Assembly: GCF_000786695.1 (NCBI RefSeq)
Contig: NZ_CP009962.1
Coordinates: 3,844,001-3,908,000 of the forward strand
Direction: 5' to 3'
Length of the DNA: 64,000 nucleotides
From: Collimonas arenae
GTDB taxonomy: Bacteria; Pseudomonadota; Gammaproteobacteria; Burkholderiales; Burkholderiaceae_D
Shown: positions 22,951 through 34,217 of the stretch, piece by piece
How positions within the stretch are numbered: the stretch's first letter is position 1
How the letters are laid out: each line of letters starts with the position of its first letter
The notes under the pieces: generated by a model
What the model was told of the DNA's origin: nothing
Databases searched by the model: none
The model's input: the letters and a program-made list of their open reading frames with translations, nothing else
Translations under genes and position numbers: made by a program

Positions 22951-25503
22951 ATGACGACACTTGCCGCGACCCTGAAACAGCAGCTTAGAACCGAGCGGCA
23001 AGTCATCATCTCTGCATTTCTCGCCGACGGCAAACCCGGCGAATTGCTGACTGCATTGCGTCGCAGCGTCGACATCGCCCTCACCCAGGCCTGGAAAATG
23101 CTGGGCATGCCGCCCTCGACGGCGCTGGTAGCGGTCGGCGGTTATGGCCGCGGCGAGTTGTTTCCGCACTCCGACGTCGACGTATTGATCTTGCTCGGTG
23201 CAGCACCCGATGCGGAATTGAAGCCACGACTGGAGCAACTGGTCCAGCTGTTCTGGGACATCGGCCTGGAAATCGGCCACAGCATCCGCACCGTCGACGA
23301 GTGCCTGAGCGAATCCGCCGCTGACATTACGGTGCAGACCAGCCTGCTTGAAGCACGGCTGGTGACCGGCAATCAACCACTGTTCTCTCAATTACAGGAA
23401 CGTTGCAGTGCGGCGATGGATCCTTGCGCATTCTTCCAGGAAAAAATTCTGGAAATGCGCCAGCGCCATGTCAAGTATGAAGACACGCCATACAGCCTGG
23501 AGCCCAACTGCAAGGAAAGCCCGGGCGGCCTGCGCGACTTACAGGTGATCTTGTGGGTGGCCAAGGCTGCAGGTCTCGGCGAATCCTGGGCCAAGCTTGC
23601 CAAGCACGGCCTGATCACGGCCGCCGAAGCGCGCCAGCTGTCGCGCCAGGAGCGCGCCTTCAAGGATATCCGGATCCGCCTGCACATCTATACCAACCGG
23701 CGTGAAGATCGCCTGGTGTTCGACGTCCAGACCCCGATCGCCGAAGCGCTGGGTTTCCAGACTACCGAGACGCGGCGCGCCAGCGAATACCTCATGCAGC
23801 GCTATTACTGGGCGGCCAAAGCGGTGACCCAGCTCAACACCATTCTGCTGCAGAACATCGAAGTACAACTGTTTCCCCAACCGATGGTGCCGCAGCGTAT
23901 CAATGATCGCTTCAACCATCTGAACCGCCTGATCGATATTGCCTACGACGACCTGTTCAAGACCACGCCGTCGGCCATGCTGGAACTGTTTCTGTTGCTG
24001 GCCCAGCACAGTGAATTGCGCGACATGACCGCACGCACCCGGCGCGCGCTGTGGCATGCGCGGGTCAAGATCGACAACGCTTTCCGCCGCGATCCGGTCA
24101 ACCGCTCTCTGTTCATCCAGATCATCCAGGCGCCGCAAGGAATTACCCACGCGCTGCGCGGCATGAACCAGACCAGCATCCTGGGCCGCTACCTGCCTAA
24201 TTTCCGGCGCATCGTCGGCCAGATGCAGCACGACCTGTTTCACGTCTATACCGTCGACCAGCACATCCTGATGGTGGTGCGCAATGTGCGCCGCTTCACG
24301 ATGAGCGAACACGCACATGAATATCCGTTTTGCAGCCAGCTGATCGCCAATTTCCCGCGTCCCTGGCTATTGTATGTGGCCGCCTTGTTCCACGATATCG
24401 CCAAGGGCCGTGGCGGCGATCACTCCAAACTGGGCATGACAGACGCCCTGCATTTCTGCCAGCATCACGGACTGGCCGCCGAAGACACTGCGCTGGTGGT
24501 TTTCCTGGTCGAACACCACCTGACGATGTCGCAAGTGGCGCAAAAGCAGGATTTGTCGGACCCTGACGTAATCCTGCATTTTGCCGATACCGTCAAGGAT
24601 GAACGCCATCTGACGGCCCTCTATCTGCTGACCGTGGCCGACATCCGCGGCACCAGCCCCAAAGTATGGAATGCCTGGAAAGGCAAGCTGCTGGAAGATC
24701 TGTACCGCATGACCTTGCGGGTGCTCGGCGGTGAAACGCCTTCGGCCGACCGCGAGCTGAAGAACCGCCAGGAAGAAGCGCTGAAAACCCTGCGCTTGTA
24801 CGGCTTGCCGCAAGATGCCCATGAAGCCCTGTGGCAGCAACTCGACGTCGCCTATTTCCTGCGTCACGATTCTTCCGATATCGCCTGGCAAACGCGCTCC
24901 TTCTATAACCAGATCGACAGCCAGATACCGATCGTCAAGTGCCGCCTGGCGCCGATCGGCGAAGGGCTGCAAGTTGCGGTCTACACTAAAGACCGAAGCG
25001 ACCTGTTCATCCGCATCTGCAGTTATTTCGACAGCAAGAATTTCAGCATCCTGGATGCCAAGATCCAGACCACGCGGCATGGCTATGCGCTCGACTCTTT
25101 CCTGATCAGCGCACCGCTGTTCGCCAAGCATTATCGCGACATCATCAACCTGATCGAACATGAGCTGACTGCCCTGCTGCAAGCCGACAGCGCGTTGCCC
25201 CGCGCCTCGCGCGGACGCCTCTCGCGCCTGTCGCGCACCTTCCCGCTGACGCCGACAGTCGATCTGCGGCCGGACGACCGCGGCCATTATTACCTGCTGT
25301 CGATTACCGCAAACGACCGCACCGGCCTGCTCTACTCGGTCGCCAGCGTGCTGGCCAAACACAAGATCAACTTGCACACCGCCAAGATCATGACGCTCGG
25401 CGAGCGCGTCGAAGACGTATTCCTGGTCGACGGCAACGCACTCAGCCATGCGCGCCTGCAAATCCAGCTAGAGACGGATTTGCTGGACGCCTTGCATGTC
25501 TGA
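22951..25503 (+). CDS. glnD: [protein-PII] uridylyltransferase/uridylyl-removing enzyme
   Basis: Bifunctional nitrogen sensor: uridylylates PII proteins when glutamine is low and removes UMP when glutamine is high. The domains are a nucleotidyltransferase with [16 protein letters not shown] (two catalytic Asp, residues ~64-80), a helical GlnE-like region, an HD phosphohydrolase with [14 protein letters not shown] near residue 480, and two C-terminal ACT domains (from about 675 and 780) that sense glutamine. The 850-residue length is typical. It lies just after map. No PII gene is in the window. Confidence 0.97.
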
Positions 25504-26344: not shown

Positions 26345-26815
26345 CTACAAAAACCGGTCCAGGATCTTGCGGCTGACCTTATCCAGCGCCAGCGTATCCC
26401 GAATCAAAAATTGCACGCCATGACTGTCGGCGATCAGCAAGCTGGTCGATACGATACGGCGAATATCTTCTTCGCCCTTGAGCGTAAAAGAAGCATCGCC
26501 GCGATTGGTTTCCACGTACCAGGTGCTGGGAGAGGTGTAGCTGGAAACCCTTTGTATGCGCTTGATTTCCGGCATGAACTCGCGGCTTGCCAATTCCTTT
26601 TCGACAATCTCCCTGGTGTCATCCGGCAAATCCGACAAGCGGCTGATCCAGGCCAGTTCGTGGCCGTCCGCGTTCACCAGCGATAGTCCGTCATCCGGCG
26701 CGCCGATCGGAAAGGCGCGTACCGGCACAACGCCTTCGTGCATCTCGCCATCGGCGGCGGTGTAGACCAGGCGGCCAAAAGCGTTGTGGCTTAGTGTGAA
26801 ATCATGTGTTGTCAT
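26345..26815 (-). CDS. DUF1854 protein, cyanophycin-locus partner of the ABC exporter
   Basis: A 156-residue cytosolic protein with no signal peptide or membrane segment. It matches the DUF1854 family: an N-terminal DFTLSHNAFGRLVYT block, a central DLPDDTREIVEKELASREFMPEIKRI and a C-terminal DSHGVQFLIRDTLALDKVSRKILDRFL. Members are known almost only beside a dedicated ABC transporter in cyanophycin gene clusters, and that is the context here: three bases after the ABC gene and next to two cyanophycin synthetases. Its biochemical role is not known to me. The tight spacing suggests coupled translation with the exporter. Confidence 0.88.
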   Translation of the reverse strand: MTTHDFTLSHNAFGRLVYTAADGEMHEGVVPVRAFPIGAPDDGLSLVNADGHELAWISRLSDLPDDTREIVEKELASREFMPEIKRIQRVSSYTSPSTWYVETNRGDASFTLKGEEDIRRIVSTSLLIADSHGVQFLIRDTLALDKVSRKILDRFL

Positions 26816-29137: not shown

Positions 29138-29444
29138 CTAAACGGCATGGTGTGTCCGCCTGCACAAAGGCTTGCGGACCGGATGGAATTTTGTGTGAAA
29201 TCGCCTTAAATGGCGCACATCGTCTGCCGCAAGTATTATATCCTATCGGGTTTTCTGGAAACGTTACTCTTCGTTACTAAATAACACTATCTTTTTTAGT
29301 ATTTGTTTTTTAGTAATTCGATGTAAACCGAATCGCGCTTCAGCGCGTTAGAAGTTGTTGCAGGGTGTTGAAATCGGCACGCGCAATCGTTCCGAATCAA
29401 CTCATGGCCATTTTGGCCAACACCTATAGTCTCATTGCTGACTC
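29138..29444. promoter_or_regulatory. divergent control region between the ABC exporter and cphA'
   Basis: This 307-bp spacer contains no gene. Noticeable elements are two TTTTTTAGTA copies spaced 14 bp start to start (29292-29301, 29306-29315), the repeated GTTACT around 29262-29276, and a small CGCGC-TTCA-GCGCG hairpin near 29334-29347. Its centre is much more AT-rich than the flanking genes, fitting promoters for both directions and a regulator binding on one DNA face. I could not assign specific -10/-35 boxes. Confidence 0.5.
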
Positions 29445-31601
29445 ATGAAAAACATTGAAATTCTCCGTATCATGTCCCTCCGCGGACCAAATATATGGAC
29501 GTATAGATCAACCCTTGAGGCGTGGATCGACATCGGAGAACTGGAAGACTTCCCCTCCAACACACTACCCGGCTTTAACCAGCGCCTGACCGGCTGGCTA
29601 CCATCCCTGATTGAACACCGTTGCAGTTATGGCGAACGCGGCGGCTTTGTACAACGGCTGCAGGACGGCACCTGGCCCGGCCACATTCTCGAACACGTTA
29701 CCCTGGAATTGCAAAACCTGGCCGGAATGCCCGGCGGTTTCGGCAAAGCCCGCAGCACCTCAGTGCGCGGCGTCTATAAAGTAGCGGTGCGCGCGCGCCA
29801 CGAAGAAGTCACCCGCGCCGCCCTGCATGCCGCCCGCGACCTGGTCATGGCGGCGATTGAAGATAAACCGTTCGACGTTCCCGCCTCTATCGCCACACTG
29901 CGTGCGATGGTCGATTCGCGCTGCCTGGGGCCCAGCACCGCCTGCATCGTCGAAGCTGCGGATGAACGCCGCATCCCCTCTTTCCGTCTGACCGACGGCA
30001 ACTTGGTGCAACTCGGCCACGGCATTCGCCAGCGCCGCATCTGGACGGCTGAAACCGATCAGACCAGCGCCATCGCCGAAAGCATCTCCAGCGACAAGGA
30101 CCTGACCAAGACACTGCTGCAAGCTTGCGGCGTGCCTGTACCTGAAGGCCAACTGGTGGAAAGTCCCGAAGAAGCCTGGGAAGCCGCCGAAGACATCGGC
30201 CTGCCTGTCGTGGTGAAACCGTCCGACGCCAATCATGGCCGCGGCGTTTTCATCGACCTCAACACCCGCGCTGAAATCGAAACCGCCTACAAGCTGGCGT
30301 TGGAAGAAGGCAGCAGCGTGATTGTCGAACGTTTCATCCCGGGCAATGAACATCGCCTGCTGATCGTCGGCGGCCGCCTTGCAGCAGCCGCGCGCGGCGA
30401 GCCGCTATCGGTAATTGCCGACGGCACTTCAACCATTGAGCAGTTGATCAATAGTCAGATCAATTCCGATCCGCGCCGCGGCGAGCTGGAAGAATGTCCG
30501 CTGAGCCTAGTGCTGCTGGATCAGGAACCGGTAGTACGGGTAGAACTGGAACGCCAGGGCTTTACCGGCGCCTCGATCCCTCCTGCCGGTAAACAAATAC
30601 TGATTCAACGCAACGGCAACGTCTCGATCGATGTCACCGATCTGGTGCATCCAAGCGTCGCCGCCGCTGCGTCGCTGGCGGCGCGCGTTGTCGGTCTGGA
30701 CATTGCAGGCGTCGACCTGGTGGCGGGAGACATTTCCCGGCCGCTGGAAGAACAGCGCGGCGCTATTGTTGAAGTCAACGCCGGCCCCGGTTTGCTGATG
30801 CATCTGAAACCGGCCGAAGGCCGGCCGCGTCCGGTGGGACGAGCAATTATCGAACACCTGTTCGCCGCCGGCGACAATGGCCGCATTCCGATTGTCGGCG
30901 TCTCCGGCACCCACGGCAAAACCACCGTCTCGCGCCTGATCGCATGGCAATTGCACTTGAGCGGCAATCACGTCGGGCTGGCTTGCGGCGATGGCTTGTA
31001 TTTCGCTCAGCGCCAGGTTGAAAAAGGCGATTGCGCAAATTGGGAATCGGCGCAACGTGTGCTGATCAACCGTGCAGTGGAAGCGGCGGTATTTGAAAAT
31101 AGCCACGATACGATCCTGTCCGAAGGACTGGTCTACGATCGCTGCCAGGTCGGTGTGGTCACTAATATCGCCGCCAACGACAGCCTGCCGCAGTATTACA
31201 TCGGCGATGCCGAGGAAATGGTGAAAGTCACCCGGACCCAGGTCGATGTCGTCTTGCCGACCGGCGTCGCAGTGCTGAACGCCGCCGACAAGCTGGTGGC
31301 AGACATGGCTTCGCTATGCGACGGCGAAGTGATTTTCTTTGGCATCAATCCTGCCCTGCCGGTGATTGCAGAACACCTTGAAAAGAAAAAGCGCGCAGTG
31401 TTTGTCCGCAATGACCAGATCATGCTCGCCATCGGCAAGGATGAAATGCTGCTGGCTGACATCACGACCGTGCCGCTGATCGCCCGCAGCAAAGATAGCT
31501 TCCAGATTGAAAACGTGCTCGCAGCGGTTGCGGCGGCATGGGCACTGGACATCTCTCACGATCTGATACGTGCAGGGATCGAAACTTTCGACATGGCGTA
31601 G
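29445..31601 (+). CDS. cphA': CphA'-type cyanophycin synthetase, C-terminally short
   Basis: A 718-residue cyanophycin-synthetase homologue. The N domain (1-~165) holds an HxxEH motif (His80, Glu83, His84; GHILEHVTLELQ), a pattern I associate with the primer-making hydrolase site of some CphA1 enzymes. An ATP-grasp domain (~220-480) follows, with SDANHGRGV and EVNAGPGLLMHL. The Mur-ligase-like domain starts with GTHGKTT (488-494), where the usual Asn is His. The protein ends just after AAWALDISHDLIRAG, at the point equivalent to about residue 705 of the neighbouring CphA, so the Mur C-terminal subdomain is absent. A short CphA' paired with a long CphA is known in betaproteobacteria, so this is probably not a recent truncation. 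It is the first gene of the pair, 45 bases before cphA. Confidence 0.9.
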   Translation: MKNIEILRIMSLRGPNIWTYRSTLEAWIDIGELEDFPSNTLPGFNQRLTGWLPSLIEHRCSYGERGGFVQRLQDGTWPGHILEHVTLELQNLAGMPGGFGKARSTSVRGVYKVAVRARHEEVTRAALHAARDLVMAAIEDKPFDVPASIATLRAMVDSRCLGPSTACIVEAADERRIPSFRLTDGNLVQLGHGIRQRRIWTAETDQTSAIAESISSDKDLTKTLLQACGVPVPEGQLVESPEEAWEAAEDIGLPVVVKPSDANHGRGVFIDLNTRAEIETAYKLALEEGSSVIVERFIPGNEHRLLIVGGRLAAAARGEPLSVIADGTSTIEQLINSQINSDPRRGELEECPLSLVLLDQEPVVRVELERQGFTGASIPPAGKQILIQRNGNVSIDVTDLVHPSVAAAASLAARVVGLDIAGVDLVAGDISRPLEEQRGAIVEVNAGPGLLMHLKPAEGRPRPVGRAIIEHLFAAGDNGRIPIVGVSGTHGKTTVSRLIAWQLHLSGNHVGLACGDGLYFAQRQVEKGDCANWESAQRVLINRAVEAAVFENSHDTILSEGLVYDRCQVGVVTNIAANDSLPQYYIGDAEEMVKVTRTQVDVVLPTGVAVLNAADKLVADMASLCDGEVIFFGINPALPVIAEHLEKKKRAVFVRNDQIMLAIGKDEMLLADITTVPLIARSKDSFQIENVLAAVAAAWALDISHDLIRAGIETFDMA

Positions 31602-31646
31602 TTGTAAATTTTCAGCAAATAATTAGACAATTAGGAAATCCTGTTA

Positions 31647-34217
31647 ATGGACGTATCACGTATCCGAGTACTTCGCGGCCCCAATCTGTGGAGTCGACAT
31701 ACCGCTATTGAAGCCATTGTGTCCTGCACCGAAGCCGAGCGCGCCATCGCAGGCATCGCCGGCTTCGAAGCCAAGCTGCGTGAGCGTTTCCCACAGATGG
31801 GTTTCCTGGAGGCGACCGGCAAGAACGGCGTGGTGTCGATGGCGCACGCCCTGGAAATCGCCGCGCTCGGCCTGCAATCGGAAGCGGGCTGCCCGGTCAC
31901 CTTCAGCCGTACCGTGCCGACGCTGGATGCCGGCGTCTATCAGGTCATCGTCGAATACAGCGAAGAAGAAGTCGGCCAGCTGGCGTTTGAACTGGCGCAA
32001 CAACTGTGCCTGGCGGCGTTGACTGACCAGCCTTTCGATCTGGCCGGCGCACTGGCGCGCCTGCAAGAACTGGATGAAGATATCCGCCTCGGACCAAGCA
32101 CAGGCTCCATCGTCCATGCAGCGGTGACACGCGGCATCCCGTTCCGTCGCCTGACTGGCGGCAGCATGGTGCAATTCGGCTGGGGCAGCCGCCAGCGCCG
32201 TATCCAGGCTGCGGAAACCAACTACACCAGCGCGATCGCCGAATCCATCGCGCAAGACAAAGACCTGACCAAGAAACTGTTGAACGCCGCCGGCGTGCCG
32301 GTGCCGATGGGCCGCGTCGTCTCTACTGCGGAAGAAGCATGGGCCGCGGCGCAGGAAATCGCCAGCCCGGTAGTGCTCAAACCGCGCGATGGCAATCAAG
32401 GCAAAGGCGTCGCAGTCAACATCACTGCCCGCGAACAGGTCATTGCGGCGTTTGCCGTGGCCTCCAAAATTTGTTCGGAAGTGATCGTCGAGCGTTACCT
32501 GCCCGGCCATGATTTCCGCCTGCTGGTAGTCGGCAATCATCTGGTGGCCGCCGCCCGCCGCGATCCACCGCAAGTCATCGGCGACGGCGTGCATACCATC
32601 AGCCAACTGGTGAACCAGGTCAACAGCGATCCGCTGCGCGGCGAAGGCCACGCCACTTCGCTGACCAAGATCCGCTTCGATGCGATCGCCCTGGCGACGC
32701 TGGCAAAACAGAATTACTCCGCCGATTCGATTCCGCCGCAAGGCGTACGCGTGGTATTACGTAACAACGCCAACCTGAGCACCGGCGGCACCGCCACCGA
32801 CGTCACCGAAGACGTACATCCTGAGATGGCCGCACGCGCCGTCGCTGCGGCTCAAATGGTCGGACTGGATATCTGCGGCGTGGATGTGGTCTGCAACAAT
32901 GTCCACCAGCCGCTGGAAGAACAAGAAGGCGGCGTGGTCGAAGTCAACGCCGCACCCGGCCTGCGCATGCATATCAGCCCGTCCTACGGCAAAGGCCGTC
33001 CGGTCGGCGCCGCCATCATGTCCACCATGTTTGCCGAGGGTGACAACGGCCGCATTCCGCTGGTCGCGGTCGCCGGCACCAACGGCAAGACGACCACCGT
33101 GCGCCTGATCGCTCATCTGCTGGGCCGTAAAGGCCTGCGCGTCGGGATGACCAATTCCGATGGCGTTTACATCGAAAAACAACGCATCGACACCGGCGAC
33201 TGCAGCGGCCCGCGCAGCGCCCGCAATGTCCTGATGCATCCGGATGTTGACGCAGCCGTATTTGAAACGGCACGCGGCGGCATCTTGCGCGAAGGCTTGG
33301 GTTTCGACCGCTGCGACGTCGCCGTGGTAACCAATATCGGCATGGGCGACCATCTCGGCCTGAGTTTTATCAGCACGGTCGAAGACCTGAGCGTCGTCAA
33401 ACGCGTCATCGTTGAAAACGTCGCACCTGGCGGCCATGCCGTCTTGAACGCAGCCGACCCGATGGTCGCCAGCATGGCCAAGTCCTGCCCCGGCTCAGTC
33501 ACCTTTTTCGCGCACGATTTTCATCATCCGTTGATGACCACGCATCGCGCACAAGGTCATCGTGTGGTGTACCAGGACGGTAACGCTATTGTCGCCGCCA
33601 AAGGCAAGCAAGAGCATCGGTTCCTCCTGCAAGAAATTCCGCTCACGCGCAATGGCACAATCGGCTTCCAGATTGAAAACGCCATGGCAGCGATCGCCGC
33701 CGCCTGGGCCTTGAACCTGGACTGGGATGTCATACACGCCGGTCTTGCCAGCTTTATCAACGATGCCGCCACTGCGCCCGGCCGTTTCAACGTCTTCGAC
33801 TATCGCGGCGCCACCCTGATCGCCGACTACGGCCACAATCCGGATGCTATCCAGGCGCTGGTCAAGGCGATTGACAGCATGCCGGCCAAACGCCGCTCAG
33901 TAGTCATCAGCGGCGCCGGCGACCGCCGCGACATCGACATCCGTCACCAGACTGAAATTCTTGGCGATGCCTTCGACGAAGTAATCCTGTACCAGGACCA
34001 GTGCCAGCGCGGCCGTGCCGATGGCGAAGTGCTGGGCTTGTTGCGCGAGGGCTTGAAAAATGCCCGTCGCACCACCGCTACGGAAGAAATCAATGGCGAG
34101 TTTATCGCCATTGATACTGCGTTGTCGCATTTGTCGCCGGGAGATCTTTGCCTGATTCTGGTTGACCAGGTAGAAGAGGCGCTGGAACATATCGCCAAGC
34201 GCATAGCGGAAGTCTAA
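31647..34217 (+). CDS. cphA: cyanophycin synthetase
   Basis: Polymerises aspartate and arginine, with ATP, into the storage polymer cyanophycin. The 856-residue length is full for the family. After the N domain comes an ATP-grasp domain (~215-470; KPRDGNQGKGVAVN, EVNAAPGLRMHI) that adds Asp. The complete Mur-ligase-like domain that adds Arg follows: P-loop GTNGKTT at 477-483 and a C-terminal subdomain with DYGHNPDAI at 727-735 and SGAGDRRD. The N-domain position that is HILEH in CphA' reads HALEI here (67-71), so the second His of HxxEH is missing. AGGAAA precedes the ATG. No cyanophycinase or isoaspartyl dipeptidase lies in the window. Confidence 0.96.
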   Translation: MDVSRIRVLRGPNLWSRHTAIEAIVSCTEAERAIAGIAGFEAKLRERFPQMGFLEATGKNGVVSMAHALEIAALGLQSEAGCPVTFSRTVPTLDAGVYQVIVEYSEEEVGQLAFELAQQLCLAALTDQPFDLAGALARLQELDEDIRLGPSTGSIVHAAVTRGIPFRRLTGGSMVQFGWGSRQRRIQAAETNYTSAIAESIAQDKDLTKKLLNAAGVPVPMGRVVSTAEEAWAAAQEIASPVVLKPRDGNQGKGVAVNITAREQVIAAFAVASKICSEVIVERYLPGHDFRLLVVGNHLVAAARRDPPQVIGDGVHTISQLVNQVNSDPLRGEGHATSLTKIRFDAIALATLAKQNYSADSIPPQGVRVVLRNNANLSTGGTATDVTEDVHPEMAARAVAAAQMVGLDICGVDVVCNNVHQPLEEQEGGVVEVNAAPGLRMHISPSYGKGRPVGAAIMSTMFAEGDNGRIPLVAVAGTNGKTTTVRLIAHLLGRKGLRVGMTNSDGVYIEKQRIDTGDCSGPRSARNVLMHPDVDAAVFETARGGILREGLGFDRCDVAVVTNIGMGDHLGLSFISTVEDLSVVKRVIVENVAPGGHAVLNAADPMVASMAKSCPGSVTFFAHDFHHPLMTTHRAQGHRVVYQDGNAIVAAKGKQEHRFLLQEIPLTRNGTIGFQIENAMAAIAAAWALNLDWDVIHAGLASFINDAATAPGRFNVFDYRGATLIADYGHNPDAIQALVKAIDSMPAKRRSVVISGAGDRRDIDIRHQTEILGDAFDEVILYQDQCQRGRADGEVLGLLREGLKNARRTTATEEINGEFIAIDTALSHLSPGDLCLILVDQVEEALEHIAKRIAEV

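Follow-up and report, generated by a model that had tools for sequence, protein, structure and literature searches.

Apparent division of primer-making and ligase sites between two tandem cyanophycin synthetase homologues of Collimonas arenae

The cyanophycin synthetase CphA1 of Synechocystis sp. UTEX2470 (SuCphA1), whose residue numbering serves as our reference, carries three active sites. Its N domain holds a Cx19HxxEH zinc site (C59, H79, E82, H83) and is reported to be a metallopeptidase-like endo-cyanophycinase, slow and endo-acting, that in the tests made gives mainly (beta-Asp-Arg)4 pieces; the E82Q substitution abolishes primer-independent activity (PMC9262961). The G-domain residues are K220, K261, H267 and R309, with R323, N394 and R458 beside S396 for Asp recognition and D431 and E450 for Mg, and those of the M domain are K499, T500, T522, E558, R731 and H748 (PMC9427784). 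According to PMC9262961, the N domain alone can free the primer-dependent CphA1 of Tatumella from its need for primer, in trans and in vitro, as can a CphA1 whose G and M sites were inactivated by substitution (H267A; D585A H586A); the primer-making site is missing from about a fifth of CphA1 enzymes, for which residual strands or other molecules of the cell are thought to serve as primers. CphA2 has no N motif (PMC9262961) and neither the M-domain P-loop nor the M lid (PMC9427784). Adjacent cphA pairs without a cyanophycinase, one group of them with an ABC gene, are also in print (PMC5178258; PMC10687191, section 11). Here we describe such a pair, cphA' and cphA, in 64,000 nucleotides of Collimonas arenae DNA (contig NZ_CP009962.1, positions 3,844,001 to 3,908,000; the window), and suggest that the primer-making and ligase sites have been parted between the two proteins. 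The N-domain cutter, its action in trans in vitro and tandem genes were already known; a conserved division of these sites between two natural proteins was not found in the open-licence literature searched.

An earlier sequence-only reading of the window described CphA' as a protein of 718 amino acids with His80, Glu83 and His84, an early end and a GTHGKTT P-loop, and CphA as one of 856 amino acids with a complete Mur domain and a HALEI motif that lacks the second His; alignment reproduces all of these features. The cyanophycin synthetase profile NF010623 matches CphA' with 1098 bits, ending at profile position 716 of 871, and CphA with 1256.6 bits, reaching position 865 of 871. The top named relative of CphA' is a Collimonas humicola protein, at 96% identity. 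His80, Glu83 and His84 of CphA' align with H79, E82 and H83 of SuCphA1, and Cys60, 19 residues ahead of His80 and overlooked by the earlier reading, takes the position of the third metal ligand. These residues and the predicted fold agree with an inverted zinc metallopeptidase-like domain, in which metal binding and cleavage are putative. In the G domain of CphA' the Asp-recognition residues are lost, with R323 replaced by Gly (Gly318), S396 deleted and R458 replaced by Leu (Leu451). In its M domain Ser580 stands in place of H586, Lys492 is retained and the lid is absent; a Mur lid remnant would not fit the 45-base gap between cphA' and cphA, which is too short. Adames in 2013 reportedly remarked on a missing loop in CphA'. 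The window CphA is without the Cys-bearing loop, having no counterpart of Cys59 or His57, and the HALEI at residues 67-71 puts Ile at the position of His83. Every mapped Asp, Mg and M residue is present in CphA, with Gln251 instead of His267. The sequence-only reading had also pointed to a metal-dependent N-domain hydrolase that trims product into primers, as PMC9262961 indeed describes.

The same residue pattern was followed across distinct rows, 158 of CphA' and 152 of CphA, after rows with identical last 550 residues had been collapsed. Some of them come from loci selected for their similarity to CphA' (80 of 411 retained), a selection biased towards pairs; draws from the order (200 Burkholderiales genomes), the class (370 genomes) and the phylum (397 genomes) are free of that bias. 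Aligned together, the four motif residues (Cys and HxxEH, hereafter CHEH) occur in 158/158 CphA' and 0/152 CphA, and pattern matching finds the exact Cx19HxxEH spacing in 154 of the 158 CphA' rows. The even Burkholderiales draw places 76/200 genomes above the cut-off, 70 of paired type and 6 one-copy, and among its rows read at >=600 amino acids the motif is in 69/69 CphA' and 0/67 CphA; further pairs from the phylum draw give 10/10 and 0/9. A full HxxEH remains in two of the 152 CphA and in one of the nine further ones, in no case with the Cys, and SuCphA1 positions 56-61, the Cys loop, are deleted in all 152 rows. The Asp-recognition residues R323, N394, S396 and R458 are all present in 0/158 CphA' and 152/152 CphA; throughout the CphA' rows R323 and R458 are replaced and S396 is absent (158/158 each), with N394 aligned as Asn in 137/158. 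The M set (K499, E558, D585, H586, H748) is complete in 15/158 CphA' and 151/152 CphA, the last CphA row being cut by a contig end. Position 267 is Gln in 145 and His in 7 of the 152 CphA, and His267 is kept in 145/158 CphA', most of which retain the G catalytic set. Both genes could be read in one stretch at 64 loci, and genes are cut or split in genomes G005, G010, G029, G050 and G160.

One-copy enzymes served as controls, and all 30 (6 from the order, 13 from the class and 11 from the phylum draw) have CHEH, H267 and the Asp and M residues. Left out of this count were a divergent 664-bit partial match (G400), a protein that aligns mainly over its M half (L121) and a cut copy of the G387 CphA (L156_S). 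Outside the draws, three of four CphA from plasmid records have the motif, and the fourth, from a Chryseobacterium plasmid, is without it and has Gln267; no cyanobacterial record was among the best 60 of 132 plasmid-search matches. At several one-copy loci (L116-L119, L122, L144, L250, L251, L256, L288, L289) a second open reading frame of about 450-720 amino acids adjoins cphA1; it is a weak CphA match, mainly to the Mur-ligase half, and the M-site residues are present in those that were aligned.

The survey bears on what the sequence-only reading had proposed, namely complementary losses by which CphA' supplies primers, and perhaps adds Asp, while CphA elongates. The co-conservation that would be expected among pairs is found: His80 and Glu83 have their counterparts in every CphA' row, and a full HxxEH is rare among the CphA rows. 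Its division of labour is supported by sequence, in that the site is kept in all CphA' rows and lost in CphA, with primer supply itself a matter of inference. Asp addition by CphA' is not supported, R323 and R458 being replaced and S396 absent in all rows. The complementary losses are seen in the window, where CphA' has no lid; as a general statement the lid loss was overstated, given the 15 CphA' that keep a complete M site.

The most economical account, and one we regard as fairly probable, is subfunctionalisation after duplication, with CphA' as the primer-making cutter, CphA as both ligases and the primer made between two proteins. The ancestor would have been a single cyanophycin synthetase with all three sites, and its tasks would have been shared out once its gene had duplicated. 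CphA, having lost the N-domain zinc site, would be a primer-dependent polymerase in which G adds Asp and M adds Arg. CphA', in which the N-domain zinc endo-cyanophycinase is the sole active site kept in every row, would shorten long chains to fragments for CphA to extend; in the enzyme that has been studied, such fragments are about four beta-Asp-Arg units long. The account builds on observed residue states, one duplication, differing constraint on the domains and linkage of the genes, and it presumes that zinc binding and cleavage occur at the CphA' site, that CphA depends on primer and that both meet in the cell. Action of CphA' in trans is plausible because it has been demonstrated in vitro for other CphA1 proteins, and the gene arrangement suggests one transcript for cphA'-cphA. 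If CphA is primer-dependent, a dedicated partner keeps its primer site, and this two-protein primer supply would allow synthesis and cutting to be regulated separately, unlike in a single-chain enzyme. Such a split would account for the way in which many related bacteria begin the polymer, and co-expression of CphA' with primer-dependent synthetases is a practical idea that follows from it.

Phylogeny places the division at one event. In a G-domain tree the CphA' (29 rows) form one clade with a Shimodaira-Hasegawa-like approximate likelihood ratio (SH-aLRT) support of 99, the CphA (29 rows) form another with 97, and the two join in a clade with 98, outside which the one-copy enzymes fall. A careful 61-row tree, from which the long-branched G277 CphA' was omitted, agrees, with supports of 100/99 and 99/97. 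Judged from these sequences, a single duplication gave rise to CphA' and CphA, and the partition arose once. On the first tree CHEH is kept in 29/29 CphA' rows, His267 of CphA' needs at least four changes, and the CphA' M site needs at least two, or nine losses if regain is impossible; loss of the Mur lid and M site in CphA' is later, repeated and not universal. Only loosely placed (80/44), close to the root of the pair clade, is a CphA of the alphaproteobacterial genome G696 (93% complete, 8% contamination; L285, 2282-7783), the one visible copy, with CHEH, Q267 and the Asp and M residues. It adjoins the same ABC and DUF1854 genes that neighbour the window pair, in divergent orientation, and counts in favour of the proposed account; it is apparently unsplit, the contig ending inside the gene.

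Sequence constraint differs between the two proteins in the way that the proposed division would predict. Over the 64 loci (2016 genome pairs), identity in the N-site stretch 55-105 is 0.719 for CphA' and 0.523 for CphA, and over the whole N domain 0.635 and 0.585, as against 0.668 and 0.710 in G and 0.434 and 0.673 in the M core. The ratio of non-synonymous to synonymous substitution rates (dN/dS) relative to the nearest named species (L036) rises from N to G to M in CphA' (0.012, 0.040, 0.047) and falls in CphA (N 0.073, G 0.043, M core 0.027, M lid 0.019). Ten species were compared; for several of them dS approaches or exceeds saturation, and for L042 and L052 some domains gave no value. 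All values are below 0.32, and all 8 computable comparisons show the weakest constraint on CphA' in its M domain. A natural test is offered by a gammaproteobacterial family (f128), in which the system occurs in 12/36 genomes. His267 is gone from all 12 of its CphA' (Arg in 10, Leu in G387, replaced or unaligned in G277); the ten with Arg267 have Ala for R323 and Pro for R458, and the G277 protein is also without D431. CHEH is nevertheless retained in 12/12, despite loss of most M residues and a degenerating G site. That same decay, and the M core as the least conserved part of the protein, might be read as signs of a non-catalytic scaffold or decaying duplicate whose motif is structural only. 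We consider this very improbable: dN/dS is well below 1 in every computable domain, and the four motif residues persist in every CphA' row, though CphA shows that the protein can dispense with them.

The Asp-blind G domain that most CphA' conserve possibly serves in polymer binding or acts on another nucleophile. A rival reading is a CphA2-like activity, in which the modified G domain would ligate beta-Asp-Arg dipeptides or oligomers in place of free Asp. Retention of the ATP and acyl-phosphate residues in most rows, together with loss of R323, S396 and R458 for free Asp, is consistent with this, as is the mostly lost M lid, a feature of CphA2 (PMC9427784). The N motif is present in CphA' and absent from CphA2, and the M P-loop of the window CphA' is altered yet keeps Lys492. 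We consider such an activity quite unlikely. A two-enzyme relay, with the Asp step on CphA' and the Arg step on CphA, was prompted by the H267Q change in 102/102 CphA of the first set and was rejected. The Asp-binding Arg residues are absent from all CphA', Gln267 also occurs in an apparently unsplit and an N-less enzyme elsewhere (G696; Chryseobacterium), and the G277 CphA has Gln267 while its CphA' has neither His267 nor D431. Gln267 is probably a natural variant, since it is found in the Chryseobacterium plasmid CphA and in G696.

Several points weigh against the division of labour preferred here. As the split has a single origin, the many pairs are therefore not independent trials. A complete M site persists in 15/158 CphA', and the G catalytic set kept by most of them, with His267 in 145/158, suggests that CphA' probably does more than cut. 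In CphA the dN/dS order breaks down for the more distant species, with L043, L047 and L072 showing no higher value for N than for the M core. Loss of the N motif also occurs without a partner, as in the Chryseobacterium plasmid CphA, and genome G055 has two extra N-less CphA (L123) with no CphA' beside them. Cupriavidus rows (L050, L053-L055) carry pairs, and R. eutropha H16 presumably has the same pair type. Two reviews state that R. eutropha H16, with two homologues, yields no detectable cyanophycin (PMC8560796, section 4; PMC11362209), and one of them adds that none appears on overexpression either, in R. eutropha or E. coli.

The pair is part of a larger module. DUF1854 and ABC genes, divergent from cphA'-cphA, form with it a four-gene arrangement conserved in Burkholderiales and the one gammaproteobacterial family (loci L036-L115, L238-L249). 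Among 80 named loci DUF1854 is in 74 of the stretches and the ABC gene, which was counted in the locus stretches, in 75; DUF1854 is divergent from cphA' at 73 loci and on the same strand in L084. Of the six stretches without DUF1854, five start no more than about 2.3 kb from cphA'; the sixth (L089) does not. DUF1854 occurs in 70/200 order genomes, exactly the 70 of paired type (G029 being cut at a contig end), and in 0/6 one-copy genomes and none of the order genomes without CphA. In several genomes, such as G137, G169, G190 and G198, it is distant from the pair or located on a different contig. The phylum draw has 26 genomes with DUF1854, all within the 37 with CphA, the remaining 11 being one-copy genomes, and 26 chosen gammaproteobacterial genomes have it in 12/12 of f128 and 0/14 others. 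No surveyed genome combines DUF1854 with a three-site one-copy CphA1 and cyanophycinase. The DUF1854 model is confident (mean predicted local distance difference test score, pLDDT, 91) and has no PDB match at E<=0.001; BLASTP shows no meaningful relation between DUF1854 and the ABC protein. The N-terminal part of the ABC protein has a zinc-ribbon-like CPQC...CLIC motif ahead of the membrane domain, and its G696 relative has CPTC...CSKC.

Cyanophycinase follows the opposite distribution. Matches to TIGR02069 over its cut-off are found in 6/6 one-copy and 5/70 paired genomes of the order draw, and in 3 genomes without CphA; four of the five in paired genomes score 136-172 bits, and the strong fifth lies in G055, from the window's own family, which has a normal pair, cyanophycinase and extra CphA copies. 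There, at L123 (C1, 5334000-5351000), two divergent N-less Gln267 copies sit beside the strong match. The gammaproteobacterial set gives 0/12 for pair genomes and 13/14 for others. The window genome has no Peptidase_S51 match and one Asparaginase_2 (IaaA-type) gene. This scarcity agrees with the recognised cyanophycinase reported in 2.8% of 903 beta-proteobacterial CphA1 genomes, a gap that the same article names as an open question (PMC10206079). With the proposed split, CphA' would be a concrete candidate for polymer processing in bacteria that mostly lack a known cyanophycinase. CphA' might even be mainly the missing cyanophycinase, its N site mobilising the store where CphB is absent and primer supply being a by-product. 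The distribution and the IaaA-type gene favour such a role, but the N domain described in PMC9262961 is a slow, endo-acting enzyme, ill suited to degrading the polymer completely to dipeptides, and the cutter is probably made together with the polymerase that it opposes; we consider it unlikely, if worth keeping in mind.

A bolder possibility is that the four linked genes constitute another type of cyanophycin system, one that almost never coincides with the CphA1 and CphB type. In it CphA would build chains, CphA' would trim them to short oligomers, and the ABC exporter and DUF1854 protein would carry these, or some related peptide based on Asp, through the membrane without granule storage. 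The R. eutropha H16 reviews (PMC8560796, section 4; PMC11362209) speak against a simple storage role, and that result and the linked ABC exporter leave room for export of short oligomers. Export would, if real, explain both the absent cyanophycinase and the failed detection of cyanophycin in R. eutropha; we nonetheless give it little credence. The coordinates of the module and of the residues discussed are collected in Table 1. The nitrogen-control gene glnD ([protein-PII] uridylyltransferase) lies at 22951-25503 (+), a few kilobases before the cphA'-cphA pair.

Table 1. Features of the cphA'-cphA locus, in window positions
Feature	Position	Strand	Basis
cphA', 718-aa CphA1 homologue	29445..31601	+	open reading frame, profile match, alignment
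cphA' domains: N with intact Cx19HxxEH; G with ATP/acyl-phosphate residues, without Asp-binding Arg; M core altered; M lid absent			
Cys60 codon of cphA' (Cys59 of SuCphA1), predicted third zinc ligand	29622..29624	+	alignment
HxxEH codons of cphA', H80-I-L-E83-H84	29682..29696	+	sequence, alignment
Gly318 codon of cphA', replacing Asp-binding Arg323 of SuCphA1	30396..30398	+	alignment
Leu451 codon of cphA', replacing Asp-binding Arg458 of SuCphA1	30795..30797	+	alignment
cphA'-cphA gap, 45 bases	31602..31646	+	sequence
cphA, 856-aa CphA1 homologue; all Asp-binding and M (Arg) residues present, Gln251 in place of His267, N site lost	31647..34217	+	
HxxEH remnant in cphA, codons H67-A-L-E-I71	31845..31859	+	sequence, alignment
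Divergent ABC exporter-type protein, NCBIfam NF052233 'cyanophycin metabolism-associated ABC transporter', 1436.9 bits	26819..29137	-	
DUF1854 protein, NCBIfam NF052234 'cyanophycin metabolism-associated DUF1854 family protein'	26345..26815	-	
Intergenic region, divergence point of both gene pairs	29138..29444	.	coordinates

Among known systems, the tandem cphA genes of Betaproteobacteria (Sideroxydans cphA1/cphA2, the activated-sludge 'Group 1' clusters and the R. eutropha H16 homologues) resemble this locus in forming pairs without cyanophycinase and in having an ABC neighbour; an active-site split is not among the features described in the available text of PMC5178258, PMC10687191 and PMC10206079. 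The primer-dependent CphA1 of Tatumella morbirosei (7lgn) is like the window CphA in having no N motif and making polymer with G and M, and differs in that the window CphA has an adjoining partner with an N site. Cyanobacterial CphA2 (7ta5, 8fxh) shares with CphA' a shortened M domain without a lid, but is without the N motif that CphA' keeps, and the predicted model of CphA' is closer to CphA1. Closest in layout is the Synechocystis CphA1 (7lg5, 7txv), with the same three domains, the same Cys-His-His/Glu N site as CphA' and the same Asp-binding and M residues as CphA. There all three sites lie in one chain, whereas in the window the N site and the ligase sites lie on separate chains, with Gln267 in CphA.
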